The position numbers and the translations under genes were made by a program. Positions 20,533 to 24,768 of a DNA stretch of 32,046 bases are shown piece by piece (position 1 is the stretch's first letter; each line of letters opens with the position of its first letter). Under the pieces are notes generated by a model. The model was given only the letters and a program-made list of their open reading frames with translations. It did not search any database and was not told the origin of the DNA. The DNA lies in assembly GCA_020726335.1 (NCBI GenBank), contig DYSU01000030.1, forward strand, positions 1 to 32,046. Direction: 5' to 3'. Source of the stretch: Thiomargarita sp. (GTDB taxonomy: Bacteria; Pseudomonadota; Gammaproteobacteria; Beggiatoales; Beggiatoaceae).

Positions 20533-20844
20533 ATGAAATTAACTCGTTTGGTCGTGATTACTTTTGCATCTATTATGGCTGTTTCGGCCTCTTCTGTGTT
20601 TGCAGGGGCAAAAACCACTGTCAATAACGACAGCCAAGGTGGCATCACCGCAACAGCAGATGCCACAGGCAGTGATAACGAAGCGAACAGCAAAGCCGCT
20701 TCTGTTTCTGTTAATAACAAAGAAGGGCAAACCACCGTCAACAACACCAACCGTGGTAGCATTACCTCTAAAGCGTATGCGTCAGGCTCACGCAACGAAG
20801 CCAATGCACGCGCCACCGCAGTTGATGTGAATAACGGCGATTAA
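20533..20844 (+). CDS. Secreted repeat protein 1, putative curli/HfaA-like fibre subunit
   Basis: A 103-residue exported protein. A signal peptide ends SASSVFA (residue 24). The mature protein is almost entirely two tandem repeats of about 39 residues, at 28-66 and 67-103. Each reads TTVNN, a G-x-I-T turn, an alternating Ala-rich strand, a G-S-x-N-E-A-N turn and a final strand A-x-V-x-V-N-N. The regular turns, high Gly/Asn/Ser/Ala and absence of Cys and Trp suggest a beta-solenoid or amyloid-type subunit comparable in style to curlins, though the repeat is longer than the ~22-residue curlin repeat. It has the best ribosome site of the operon (AGGAGG) and is followed by a terminator, both expected of a major subunit. 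Homology to CsgA or HfaA is not established. Confidence 0.75.
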   Translation: MKLTRLVVITFASIMAVSASSVFAGAKTTVNNDSQGGITATADATGSDNEANSKAASVSVNNKEGQTTVNNTNRGSITSKAYASGSRNEANARATAVDVNNGD

Positions 20845-20850
20845 TCTGAT

Positions 20851-20890
20851 AAGGGGGTTTATGTTGAGGCGTAAACCCCCTTTATTATTT
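20851..20890 (+). terminator. Intrinsic terminator after repeat gene 1
   Basis: AAGGGGGTTTA (20851-20861) pairs perfectly over 11 bases with TAAACCCCCTT (20872-20882) across a 10-base loop and is followed by TATTATTT. It lies inside the apparent operon, seven bases after the stop of gene 1 and about 30 bases before the next start, leaving no room for a new promoter. It probably acts as a partial terminator. Confidence 0.8.
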
Positions 20891-20913
20891 CATCGTCCCA
20901 GCCGAGATTTTTA

Positions 20914-21222
20914 ATGATTCAACCCCGGTTCAAAATTTTAGCCATTGTTGTGATTTTATCGGTTTCTAGTGTTTGGGCCGATGCTAAATCTACCGTCAAC
21001 AGTCAAAGCAATGGCAATATCAGCGCAACAGCCAATACCAGTGGCTCTAACAATACCGTCAATGCAAAAGCCCGTGCTGTTGCTGTTCAGGCCAAAAAAA
21101 CCCAGATGCTCTCTATCACATCGCATCATAACGGTGATATTACGGCGGTGGCTGAAGCCAATGGTTCAAATAACAGCGTTTCAGCCACGGCCGCCGCTGT
21201 AGACGTTACGTCGGAAGAGTAA
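20914..21222 (+). CDS. Secreted repeat protein 2, paralogue of repeat protein 1
   Basis: A 102-residue exported protein with a signal peptide (cleavage after SVWA, residue 22) and two ~40-residue repeats at 26-65 and 66-102. The repeats follow the same scheme as protein 1: STVNSQ, NGNISATA, SGSNNTVNAKA, VAV, and again NGDITAVA, NGSNNSVSATA, VDV. NGNI/NGDI and GSNN turns recur exactly 40 residues apart. The S-x4-Q-x-N-G-N start is close in spirit to the curlin repeat. The ribosome site is weak compared with protein 1. A terminator follows. It is likely a second fibre subunit, or a nucleator or minor variant. Confidence 0.75.
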   Translation: MIQPRFKILAIVVILSVSSVWADAKSTVNSQSNGNISATANTSGSNNTVNAKARAVAVQAKKTQMLSITSHHNGDITAVAEANGSNNSVSATAAAVDVTSEE

Positions 21223-21242
21223 CCTATACACTTTTTCCAAAC

Positions 21243-21273
21243 AAGCGCGGGCATTTTCCATCGCGCTTTTTTT
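21243..21273 (+). terminator. Intrinsic terminator after repeat gene 2
   Basis: AAGCGCG (21243-21249) and CGCGCTT (21262-21268) form an exact GC-rich stem with a 12-base loop, running directly into seven Ts (21267-21273). It stands 20 bases after gene 2 and 12 bases before gene 3, so gene 3 and everything downstream depend on read-through unless an unseen promoter exists. Confidence 0.85.
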
Positions 21274-21284
21274 ATGGCTACAAA

Positions 21285-21563
21285 ATGTTAAAAAATATTT
21301 TACTATGGATAACAATCACTTGCTTGTGTTATGCCACGGCCAGTTTTGCCGAAAACCAAACGTCAGCCATCGCTGCTGATGTCGTCGTTGAAACTGGAAC
21401 AGAAGATGCTGTAACCGTTCAAAGTCAACACCAAGGCGAAATCCAAAGCACTGTCAATGGTGAGCCTGTCTCGCCAAAATCCAACGATTTCACAGATGAT
21501 TCTGGCGATGAAACCCGTGATGACTTGCCGTCATCTGATATTGCAAAAGATGAATTTTTTTAG
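21285..21563 (+). CDS. Small secreted acidic protein 3 with one degenerate repeat
   Basis: A 92-residue exported protein. The signal peptide ends ATASFA (residue 22). Residues 26-60 hold a degenerate copy of the operon's repeat: the end of one unit (AIAADVVVE) and the start of the next (VTVQSQHQGEIQS). The last ~30 residues are acidic and Ser/Asp-rich, ending in DEFF, and look disordered. No ribosome site is visible; instead the 5-codon frame ATG-GCT-ACA-AAA-TGT-TAA (21274-21291) overlaps the start codon. It could be a capping, chaperone or regulatory partner for the repeat subunits. No known family is recognised. Confidence 0.6.
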   Translation: MLKNILLWITITCLCYATASFAENQTSAIAADVVVETGTEDAVTVQSQHQGEIQSTVNGEPVSPKSNDFTDDSGDETRDDLPSSDIAKDEFF

Positions 21564-21572
21564 GAACCTATC

Positions 21573-22187
21573 ATGTATCATCTTCAATTATCTGTTCTTT
21601 TTATCAGTTTGTATTCACTCATGAGTGTTGCGGCTGAACAAGGTGCGCCCCCAGCATTGAATAATCGGCCTGTGGTTAAAATGCAACAGCAACAACAAGA
21701 GCGGTTGAAACAACGCCCGCGCAATATGCTGGAACAACGCAATGGGACGGTCAGTGATTATTTGACCACCCAACAGGTGGGCAATAAAACCGTGGTAAAA
21801 GGGGTATTGATCAACCATGGTAATGTCAATGTGGTGGGTGATGAACAAGCAAAAGCGGCAGGCGCGCAAATTGAGGTGGAAAATCAAGACAATGTGCAAG
21901 TCAATGCGGTTTTGATTCAACATGGCAATGTCAACGCCACGGCCAACAGCTTACAAGATGCCCATGCGCAGGCCACGGGTACCCAAGTTGACATTAAAGG
22001 TGCGCGTCAAGCGGTGGTCAATGTCAAATCATTGGTTCATGGCAATGTCACCGCCCATGCCACGGGTCAACAAAAAGTCGAAGCTGTGGCGGTTGGCACT
22101 CAAGTGCAAACAGACGCTGATTATCAACACATTGAAGTGAACGCCCATTCGGGCGCAGCCATCACCGCAATTTCTCAAGGGCAATAA
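21573..22187 (+). CDS. Secreted repeat protein 4, putative fibre or adhesin subunit (HfaD-like position)
   Basis: A 204-residue exported protein starting nine bases after protein 3 with AGGAA upstream. The signal peptide ends near SVAA (residue 21). A Gln/Arg-rich linker follows (about 36-57, including QQQQQ). Then come three full repeats and one partial: HGN turns at residues 82, 117 and 156 and a final SGA at 193, spacing 35-39. Each unit reads V-x-V-x5-HGNV-x-A-x-A ... A-x-A-x-G-T-Q-V. This is the same architecture as proteins 1 and 2 with a different turn. The extra linker and higher repeat number suggest a specialised role, such as the base or an adhesive tip. In Caulobacter, hfaA, hfaB and hfaD encode two surface fibre proteins and a CsgG-like lipoprotein; the parallel is by layout, not proven homology. 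Confidence 0.7.
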   Translation: MYHLQLSVLFISLYSLMSVAAEQGAPPALNNRPVVKMQQQQQERLKQRPRNMLEQRNGTVSDYLTTQQVGNKTVVKGVLINHGNVNVVGDEQAKAAGAQIEVENQDNVQVNAVLIQHGNVNATANSLQDAHAQATGTQVDIKGARQAVVNVKSLVHGNVTAHATGQQKVEAVAVGTQVQTDADYQHIEVNAHSGAAITAISQGQ

Positions 22188-22257
22188 TCTTTTTAATTCA
22201 GTGACATGTTATGCTATGCGGGGTATGGACACTCTGTCATCTTAATGGAAGCGAACC

Positions 22258-23145
22258 ATGACAAAAACAAAAACATTCACCCTTATTTTTTTATTGTCTT
22301 TATTGCAAGGATGTGAAGAAATCACCAAGCCCAATATTGATTATGTTAAACCCGCATCCACAGGCTTGGTTTCGCAAAATAACAGCGTTTATTCCAATGC
22401 TTTGGTGTGTTTAGGCGGGTTAATCAGCGCGGACAATCAAGCAGGCGACAAAGGGGTGACCATGTCAGTGGGCTTGATTCAAGATAAAACAGGCCGCGAA
22501 ATTGACAGCTCTCCCTTAACCCAAGCCGCTTCTGAAATGGCATTGACTTCTTTGTCACGCATCAACGCCATTGATTTGGTCGGTAGCACGGATATTCGAG
22601 ATATTTTGCAATACAATTTTTCCCATGTTGACCAAAATTTATTGGTCAACCAAGTGGCGTTGGGCAGTTTGGGCAGCATTGTGCCTAGCGACGTGTTTAT
22701 CACCGGCGCGATTACCGAATACAACAAAGACATACGCGGGCGTAATTGGGGGGTGAATTTATTTGGCAAATTGGTTGACAGCGGCTTATCGGGCGATGAT
22801 TCCATCATCAATGTGGCCATGGATTTGCGGCTGGTCAACGCCAAAACAGGGCGAGTATTGCGCAGTGGCACAGGTAAATTATTAACCGTCAGTTTGCAAA
22901 ACAATGTGGTGACCAAAAGCTATGATGGCTCTTTATTTCGGGTTTCCACCAGCTTGGGCGTAGGCGGTAATTATGCCATTCGCATTGCTGACCCGCTCCA
23001 TTTGGCCGTGCGCGAAATCATTGAACGCGCCACATTGATGTTGGTGGGCGAACTTTATGAACTGTCTTGGCAACAATGTGATAAAGAAGAAGCACCGCCC
23101 AGATTAGAACCGCCCAAAACCCCTGTTGAATTAGGACAGTGGTAA
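22258..23145 (+). CDS. CsgG/HfaB-family outer-membrane secretion lipoprotein
   Basis: A 295-residue lipoprotein: a hydrophobic signal with lipobox LLQGC (Cys19). CsgG features are SVGLIQDKTGR (70-80; compare VYNIQDETGQ in E. coli CsgG), a helix rich in Ala/Met after the IDSSPLTQAAS segment, VFITGAITEYN, INVAMDLRLVNAKTGRVL, and DPLHLAVREIIERATLMLV near the end. The opening YSNALVCLGGLI with Cys51 is, from memory, more like HfaB than CsgG. CsgG forms a 9-mer outer-membrane pore that exports curlin subunits; this protein should export the repeat proteins encoded just upstream. GGAAG precedes the ATG. A short Pro-rich tail (PPRLEPPKTP) follows the CsgG domain. Confidence 0.88.
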   Translation: MTKTKTFTLIFLLSLLQGCEEITKPNIDYVKPASTGLVSQNNSVYSNALVCLGGLISADNQAGDKGVTMSVGLIQDKTGREIDSSPLTQAASEMALTSLSRINAIDLVGSTDIRDILQYNFSHVDQNLLVNQVALGSLGSIVPSDVFITGAITEYNKDIRGRNWGVNLFGKLVDSGLSGDDSIINVAMDLRLVNAKTGRVLRSGTGKLLTVSLQNNVVTKSYDGSLFRVSTSLGVGGNYAIRIADPLHLAVREIIERATLMLVGELYELSWQQCDKEEAPPRLEPPKTPVELGQW

Positions 23146-23173
23146 TAAAACAACACTTGAGGACATATTGCAA

Positions 23174-24085
23174 ATGAAATCTCATTTAGCACTGATTTTT
23201 ACTGTATTGACCCAAACAAGCCTTGCCCAAGGCGATGTGGGCGTACAAGGTGGCTTTGTTGATTCCATCAAAAGCGCAAAAAGCACGGCATGGTTACAAC
23301 AACTGCCCAAATATGAAAAAAACCGCATCATCTATTATGATGAAAATGGCTTGCCTGCCCAATTACAAGCGGAGCAAACCATTGATTTAACCCATTGGTG
23401 CAACTACGATGCAAACCAAATTCGCCAATGGAAACAAGAATGGGATGAAAAGTATAAAGGCAAAGTCAGCGCAGGTTGTGCCAGTTTGTACCTAGAATGG
23501 CAAAAAGCACGCAACTGCCAAACCCCAGTTGACCCAAATGCCCAATGGAAACCCAATATTGAATGGCAAGGGCAAGGACAAAAATTAAGTGATTTACCCA
23601 ACGGCAACATTGATGGTTTATTGGCCAAAAAACAATGCGTCGGTTGCCAATTAGATTTGGTTGGTTTGGCTTGTTTGAATCTGCAACAGATTGATTTATC
23701 CAAAAGCCAGCTTAATCGGATTGATTTTTACCAAAGCGATTTACGCCACGCCAATTTATCCGCCACCCAACTCAAGCAATCTGTGTTGACGGCCAGCGAT
23801 TTAAGCCAAGCCAACATGGTGGGCATTAAAATCGTCAAAACCGTGATGGCCAATGCGATTGTCGCCAATGCCAACCTGACAGGTGCTTCTTTAAGCCATG
23901 TCGATTTGCAACGTGCTGATCTTAAAAATACCAATTTTCGTCAAAGCACTTTGCGAAATGTATCATTATCCAATGCAGATTTGCGTGGCGCAGACTTCAC
24001 CGATGCAATTTTAGAAAATGTTGACCTTAAAGGAACCAATTTAAGCCAAACCAAAGGTTTATACCTGCGTCGTCCCAAACCTTAA
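23174..24085 (+). CDS. Secreted pentapeptide-repeat protein
   Basis: A 303-residue exported protein with a signal peptide ending SLA (residue 18). The first ~150 mature residues are a Trp/Cys-containing domain I do not recognise (Cys in HWCNYD, AGCAS, ARNCQ). From about residue 155 (QCVGCQLDLVGLACLNLQ) the sequence is a run of A(D/N)Lxx pentapeptides (for example DLRHANLSATQL, NADLRGADFTDAIL), forming a four-sided right-handed beta-helix. Start choice: ATG 23174 lies ten bases after GAGGA, while TTG 23168 lies four bases after it; I prefer the ATG. The gene begins 28 bases after the CsgG-like gene, so it is probably part of the same operon and may be a surface or periplasmic accessory to the fibre system. 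Confidence 0.8.
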   Translation: MKSHLALIFTVLTQTSLAQGDVGVQGGFVDSIKSAKSTAWLQQLPKYEKNRIIYYDENGLPAQLQAEQTIDLTHWCNYDANQIRQWKQEWDEKYKGKVSAGCASLYLEWQKARNCQTPVDPNAQWKPNIEWQGQGQKLSDLPNGNIDGLLAKKQCVGCQLDLVGLACLNLQQIDLSKSQLNRIDFYQSDLRHANLSATQLKQSVLTASDLSQANMVGIKIVKTVMANAIVANANLTGASLSHVDLQRADLKNTNFRQSTLRNVSLSNADLRGADFTDAILENVDLKGTNLSQTKGLYLRRPKP

Positions 24086-24321: not shown

Positions 24322-24768
24322 ATGGCAACAACTCAAGCAAGCGGGCTGATTGACAGCCGGCAACGCAGGTTACAATTTCTTGTAACATTCACTTTATTGG
24401 TGTTTACTGTGTTTTGTAATGTTCCTGTGGACAGCCATGCCAGCAATACATCAGGCCATGCGATCATCAAAAGTTTAACGGGCATCAAAAAAGATACAAA
24501 AAAACCTTCAGCCTATGCTGCACTGGATACGCCCATCAATTTTGTCGCCGATTCGACCAACACACAAGACAACAACGTTTTAGACAACATTGGCCGAGCG
24601 ATGGTATCCGAAGACATGGCCAACATCAGTATTTTAATTCGGTTTCCGCTGGATAATACCAACACCATTCCCGAAGACTTACTCAAAAAACGCGCCAATT
24701 ATATTCAAAACTATCTAATCAAAAAATACGGCATCAGCCGTTCGCGCATAAAAACCCAAATTCGTTAA
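24322..24768 (+). CDS. Short membrane-anchored protein with degenerate OmpA-like domain
   Basis: A 148-residue protein with AGGAG before the ATG. Residues 17-37 are a hydrophobic segment after a polar, Arg-containing start; it could be a signal anchor or a long signal peptide cut near DSHA. Residues ~70-148 resemble the second half of the OmpA C-terminal peptidoglycan-binding fold: INFVADSTN strand, ISILIRFPLD strand, then L-x2-RA-x2-I-x2-YL-x4-GI-x3-R. The key GHTD-type and N-x2-LS-x2-RA residues are altered (DLLKKRA), and the protein stops right after the final strand start, so binding of diaminopimelate is doubtful. It may anchor the fibre system to the wall, or be a decayed OmpA gene. Confidence 0.6.
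   Translation: MATTQASGLIDSRQRRLQFLVTFTLLVFTVFCNVPVDSHASNTSGHAIIKSLTGIKKDTKKPSAYAALDTPINFVADSTNTQDNNVLDNIGRAMVSEDMANISILIRFPLDNTNTIPEDLLKKRANYIQNYLIKKYGISRSRIKTQIR

Follow-up and report, generated by a model that had tools for sequence, protein, structure and literature searches.

What might a five-gene locus of a Thiomargarita genome send to the cell surface, and what would the product be for? The locus was found at positions 20533–23145 of contig DYSU01000030.1 (Thiomargarita sp., assembly GCA_020726335.1). The complete contig, 32,046 nucleotides long, was analysed (the window), and its source genome, of 2.1 Mb and 97% complete, was small for Beggiatoaceae. The five open reading frames were all located on the plus strand in the order A1-A2-C-D-B (Table 1), with intergenic gaps of 69, 62, 9, and 70 bases, which confirmed the coordinates of an earlier sequence-only reading. 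A1, A2, C, and D carried signal-peptide-like N-termini and directly preceded B, a CsgG-family lipoprotein with a lipobox (LLQGC, followed by Glu-Glu), as had also been proposed; the signal peptides and the lipobox were assigned by eye. The locus is probably a divergent HfaB-type (CsgG-superfamily) export operon of Beggiatoaceae whose exported subunits would build an adhesive layer or anchor. Its novelty lies in the pairing of a CsgG/HfaB-like putative channel with subunits that match no family in the libraries searched.

The operon was real and conserved, so far only in Beggiatoaceae. The family sample comprised 42 genomes in 25 genera, the whole order as sampled; 25 GTDB genera are also given for the family in the abstract of PMC11172852. 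Each genome was counted once where contigs recurred under two records. A strong B match (E < 1e-100) was present in 8 of the 42 genomes, with weak matches in three more, and D was present in nine (E < 1e-60), plus one fragment. In all eight genomes with a strong B, D was located directly upstream (gap of −8 to 267 bases), and A preceded D at a distance of 40 bases to ~2.1 kb. The linkage was therefore kept throughout, and the objection that the genes might be unlinked in relatives fell away. A C gene lay between A and D in five of the eight loci, including the window, and also in genome G001. In the ninth D genome, A-C-D extended up to the contig end, so that B was not visible. Besides the window genome, the carriers were Ca. 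Marithrix, Ca. Thiomargarita nelsonii, two Ca. Parabeggiatoa, a Thioploca bin, and two Thiotrichaceae bins, as detected by a scan with two peptide patterns that can miss relatives. Two tandem A copies were found in Ca. Thiomargarita nelsonii, as in the window. The C-terminus of B was longer in all seven relatives (362–617 residues, against 295 in the window), with an extension of ~300 residues in three of them. Among 369 sampled genomes of the class, D was found only in the window's own genome, the other carriers lying outside that sample. B matches occurred in 11 of 274 class genomes, and the only strong one was again the window's own (best other, E = 1.4e-7). A viral origin was without support, as none of 78 stretches in a pattern scan of viral contigs encoded a relative of B.

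B was assigned to the CsgG family by the Pfam model (PF03783), which it matched with 44.8 bits against a cut-off of 20.8 (E = 1.2e-11). When compared with the NCBIfam equivalog models, B scored 92.2 bits with HfaB (NF037935; E = 2.9e-26), which missed the 300-bit cut-off, and only 18.7 bits with CsgG. A profile of the eight B proteins was aligned to solved CsgG chains over ~200 of 275 profile positions (E = 3.5e-6). The eyelet residues of CsgG are Tyr66, Asn70, and Phe71, as described in PMC7304575. None of these was kept in B in the alignment to solved CsgG. The eyelet loop was 10–12 residues in the B proteins, 16 in CsgG, and 13–16 in six alphaproteobacterial HfaB-like proteins; it was located by a pattern that returned nothing for 15 of the 30 rows, and the Marithrix loop (12 residues) was counted by eye. 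The loop of window B contained no Tyr, Asn, Phe, or Trp. Elsewhere among the eight B proteins, a Phe was present in Marithrix, a Tyr in bin T2, and both Asn and Phe in Thiomargarita. The pore-forming residues had been singled out as a check by the sequence-only reading: the alignment to CsgG stood, and the eyelet did not.

B has three cysteines, Cys19, Cys51, and Cys274. A lipobox cysteine followed by a second cysteine 24–35 residues on and a third near the end of the CsgG domain was found in 19 of 19 rows (eight B, seven HfaB-like, and four long CsgG-like proteins) and in none of the 11 other rows (CsgG and others), a pattern that was spotted after the rows had been chosen. In the alignment, the first extra cysteine was displaced by about three columns in six alphaproteobacterial rows. 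The cysteine pair is common to B and the HfaB-like proteins and is absent from E. coli CsgG; a disulfide may join the two in B. In a tree of 30 rows taken from matches, from which Caulobacter HfaB itself was left out, the 19 two-cysteine rows fell on one side of a branch with support of 94/89, which was not starred. Of the seven rows called HfaB-like, two (L031 and L032) were checked against the HfaB model.

The subunits were examined for the common repeat of ~35–40 residues that had been proposed for all four. A1 and A2 were aligned with a score of 160, compared with a maximum of 76 in 500 shuffles. The halves of A1 scored 106 against each other (shuffle maximum 50) and those of A2 scored 80 (maximum 48). 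A1 and A2 are thus the two double-repeat paralogues that had been described, with scores exceeding every one of the 500 shuffles. A single-repeat profile recovered 21 units across nine A proteins from eight genomes, including three weak units in Thiomargarita (12.8, 5.8, and 4.1 bits). The profile is partly circular, because it was grown iteratively from the same A proteins that it scores. With this profile, window C scored 4.6 bits and window D −2.5, both below the best of 440 shuffled controls (7.6), so that the common repeat held for A1 and A2 and was not supported for C or D. C is the degenerate acidic protein of the sequence-only reading. The best shuffle was exceeded by D of Marithrix (10.6) and D of M2 (7.8), the remaining C and D proteins being lower. 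Pairwise scores were equalled by shuffles in 44 of 500 cases for A1–C, 30 for A1–D, 110 for C–D, 5 for A2–C, and 3 for A2–D. Profile–profile comparison gave 70.6% for D with A, 90.9% for A with C (partly through the signal peptides), and 52.5% for D with C. These values suggest a moderate profile-level link of D with A and of A with C. D carries a repeat of its own; A1 and A2 have two 39-residue repeats each.

Mature A1 and A2 contained no cysteine, one and no aromatic residue, and 70% and 68% Asn, Gln, Ser, Thr, Gly, and Ala, respectively; the corresponding content was 66% in CsgA, 46% in C, and 54% in D. When A1, A2, C, and D were searched against Pfam and NCBIfam, no family cut-off was reached, and the best rows (E = 0.0096–0.18) belonged to unrelated families.

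The AlphaFold2 (AF2) model of D, built on an eight-row alignment, had a predicted local distance difference test (pLDDT) score of at least 90 for 136 of 204 residues and contained coils of three strands with a spacing of 35–39 residues, preceded by ~58 low-confidence residues. D is confidently modelled as a β-solenoid with three strands per coil. The model of A1 contained two three-strand coils with a strand order like that of D, with pLDDT values mostly of 70–80 (58 residues at 70–90 and none higher). D and A thus shared a common strand pattern in the structure models, and a solenoid fold is predicted for both. The best Protein Data Bank (PDB) row of a Foldseek search with D was the functional amyloid FapC (E = 4.5e-4, probability 0.12, template modelling (TM) score 0.10). 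The top VIA match of D was a putative IgA1 protease (Z = 5.2) and none was higher; the CsgA fibril was third in the list (Z = 4.8, root-mean-square deviation 8.1 over 95) and FapC reached Z = 3.3. Generic β-helices reach such values; a solenoid is therefore claimed for D, and not the FapC or CsgA fold. The VIA ceiling of Z = 5.2 likewise gives no evidence of a new fold. When PDB sequences were searched with profiles of D and A, the rows retrieved were all weak and looked unrelated (best 0.071 and 0.086), and no row of a viral structure library matched D at E ≤ 0.001.

Three known systems resemble the operon. With curli (CsgA/B/G/E/F, type VIII secretion), it shares a CsgG-family channel and small repeat subunits without cysteines. 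The curlin coil has ~22 residues and two strands, whereas the coil here has ~39 residues and three strands. The curlin repeat (Curlin_rpt) was not found in A1, A2, C, or D at E ≤ 1, nor in the window genome. It was present in 2 of the 42 family genomes, namely the two from the genus of Marithrix (L072–L075), and in the Marithrix genome the matches were located on contigs other than that of the operon. CsgE and CsgF were each found in none of the 42 family genomes, with positive E. coli controls, in agreement with their reported absence from the locus. When the D and A profiles were compared with E. coli CsgA/B by hhalign, the values were 0.1% and 0.8%. With the Fap functional amyloid, the operon shares imperfect repeats predicted to stack as β-solenoid coils, FapC being the top Foldseek row for D; the match is very weak, and the exporter here is of CsgG type.

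With HfaABD of Caulobacter crescentus, the operon shares an HfaB-like lipoprotein adjoining secreted, probably polymerising surface proteins. The Caulobacter gene order is hfaA-hfaB-hfaD, whereas four small genes are located upstream of B here. No NCBIfam match to HfaA was found at E ≤ 1 in the eight window proteins scanned. HfaD was matched neither in these proteins nor in the window genome, with a positive Caulobacter control. No sequence relationship was seen between D and HfaD-like proteins of Oricola, Thalassospira, and a gammaproteobacterial metagenome-assembled genome, with 0.6% for the D profile and 0.5% for the A profile. The proposal that the subunit set corresponds to neither csgBA nor hfaAD was borne out, as membership failed for both. 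HfaB-like loci with other neighbours were also observed. In the uncultured gammaproteobacterial genome (L031, 6654–9210), an hfaA-hfaB-like pair (HfaA, E = 4e-08; HfaB, E = 6.3e-74; both below the cut-off) was followed by two near-identical repeat proteins of 215 residues. In Oricola and Thalassospira (L032, L033, and L036), HfaB-like genes were followed by long repeat proteins, which had no NCBIfam match in L032 and L033, and apparent LuxR-type regulators were seen nearby by eye.

In the proposed mechanism, A1, A2, C, and D would be carried into the periplasm by Sec. B, a putative lipid-anchored oligomeric channel, would let the unfolded proteins leave. This export of unfolded subunits, with folding and stacking outside the cell, is inferred from what is reported of CsgG and HfaB (PMC6707917 and PMC7304575); according to PMC6707917, targeting of HfaA and HfaD depends on HfaB. 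Outside, the three-strand β-solenoid units of A1 and A2 may stack into an amyloid-like fibre. D, whose linker is long and flexible and whose solenoid is larger, could serve as nucleator, adaptor, or cap, and the strongly acidic C could modulate assembly or bind matrix. What results is most likely an adhesive fibre or anchor, to which a polysaccharide holdfast or sheath may be attached.

A role in a holdfast is plausible, given that Marithrix and Thiomargarita, both carriers of the operon, live attached. According to PMC4971068, Marithrix lives attached, as do Thiothrix, Leucothrix, and Thiomargarita, and may have holdfast ends. The source of the Thiomargarita genome was the bud of a snail-attached cell (PMC4853749); the words curli and CsgG were absent from the main text of that paper. 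Exopolysaccharide genes face the operon in bin T2, and in Marithrix a Wzz-type protein and a UDP-sugar dehydrogenase are encoded after it, beyond RtcB. Sequence alone does not separate a holdfast anchor from another surface fibre.

Several observations weigh against an HfaB-type anchor. Polysaccharide genes were located beside or near B in only two of seven relatives (four of the seven contigs being shorter than 7.3 kb) and not in the window, and the Wza-type exporter gene of the window genome, with its neighbours, sits on another contig. Strong B was limited to eight of the 42 family genomes, and of the two genomes in the genus of Marithrix only one was among them. In the tree, placement of the Beggiatoaceae with the HfaB-like rows alone (approximately unbiased test, p-AU 0.123) and placement with E. 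coli CsgG (p-AU 0.0575) were both not rejected at 0.05. The confidence of the A1 model was only moderate, the fold matches of D were weak and common for any β-helix, and the eyelet differed from that of CsgG. The Parabeggiatoa and Thioploca bins carry the operon too. Both are gliding genera rather than attached ones.

This distribution, together with the unfixed polysaccharide neighbours, would favour an amyloid of the extracellular matrix or sheath in general, used as curli are, without a link to polysaccharide anchoring, and exported by the same mechanism. Such a product is a possible but doubtful alternative, as B is nearer to HfaB than to CsgG by model score and cysteines, and exopolysaccharide genes are adjacent or near in two relatives.

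Membership in HfaABD was rejected, with B at 92.2 of 300 bits and no HfaA or HfaD match. Descent within the Caulobacter hfaABD family, with HfaA and HfaD having evolved fast, would account for the HfaB model match, the cysteine pair shared with HfaB-like proteins, and the longer repeat protein D adjoining B. It is unlikely given the missed cut-off, the absence of HfaD from the genome, the profile values below 1% with HfaD-like proteins, and the different gene order. A CsgG-fold periplasmic lipoprotein acting as an LpoB-like regulator rather than an exporter, with the small proteins periplasmic, was suggested by a weak LpoB match of B (0.019, below the cut-off) and by the ~300-residue extension in three relatives. 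This is very improbable, as the alignment covers the transmembrane-hairpin regions of CsgG, which are absent from LpoB, and B is constantly linked to secreted repeat proteins. A distant form of true curli (csgBA-csgEFG homologues), consistent with the CsgG-family B and the small repeat-rich subunits, was rejected and is scarcely credible, with no Curlin_rpt in the genome, no CsgE or CsgF in the family, CsgA/B comparisons below 1%, and an eyelet that was not kept.

The HfaB-type export operon may also belong to a wider group. In two further family genomes, G028 and G013, a two-cysteine CsgG-like lipoprotein was likewise encoded after small secreted proteins, which differed in sequence from those here, and its C-terminal part was longer (DUF4384 and a peptidoglycan-binding domain in G013). 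Two-cysteine exporters with different small proteins suggest one exporter lineage with exchanged substrates. In Beggiatoaceae loci of this kind, L021 (7819–10362) and L020 (8688–13278), the two-cysteine CsgG-like lipoproteins had 455 and 536 residues, respectively.

Table 1. Features of the export locus and its flank in the window.
Feature	Position	Strand	Description
A1	20533..20844	+	103 amino acids (aa); small exported protein built of two 39-aa repeats; candidate major subunit
Hairpin with T-rich tail, between A1 and A2	20851..20882	+	Terminator-like scan; fold z −3.64; 0/200 shuffles equally stable
A2	20914..21222	+	102 aa; A1 paralogue
Weaker terminator-like hairpin 3' of A2	21243..21268	+	Fold z −1.84; 12/200 shuffles equally stable
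C	21285..21563	+	92 aa; small, exported, and acidic (net charge of the mature form −14); degenerate repeat
D	21573..22187	+	204 aa; exported; Gln-rich N-terminal linker and predicted β-solenoid of ~3.5 coils (AF2 model)
B	22258..23145	+	295 aa; CsgG/HfaB-like outer-membrane lipoprotein, putative export channel
Pentapeptide-repeat protein	23168..24085	+	Signal-peptide-like start; 22 bases past B; Pfam Pentapeptide, E = 9.1e-28

The hairpin after A1 could leave A1 mRNA in excess, which would fit a major subunit; a hairpin after A was not uniform among relatives. The terminator-like scan gave seven sites in the window, compared with 5.3 expected from shuffles. Sigma-70-like sites numbered eight against 7.8 in shuffles, and no promoter is therefore claimed. 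The pentapeptide-repeat gene is perhaps co-transcribed with B, its membership in the operon being uncertain, and no such gene was found beside B in the loci of relatives examined. Further downstream (24322–24768), a small protein had a weak partial match to the OmpA family (E = 0.019, below the cut-off).

In a 2012 survey, 171 of 601 PF03783 matches were curli, and the non-specific ones were called 'likely paralogs' of a larger family (PMC3521004). The present operon widens CsgG-type export. Descriptions of how giant sulfur bacteria attach come from microscopy, and no protein anchor was named in the titles and abstract openings found in the open-licence literature. A bolder reading, less likely than not, is of a wider, substrate-swapping lineage of two-cysteine CsgG/HfaB exporters beside curli and HfaABD, the Beggiatoaceae branch of which might export a new functional amyloid of 39-residue three-strand solenoid coils as the protein anchor of Marithrix and Thiomargarita. 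B is short and its presumed substrates are tiny, which suits them to work in laboratory hosts though the organisms are hard to grow, and the operon provides a concrete candidate for the protein anchor of these bacteria.

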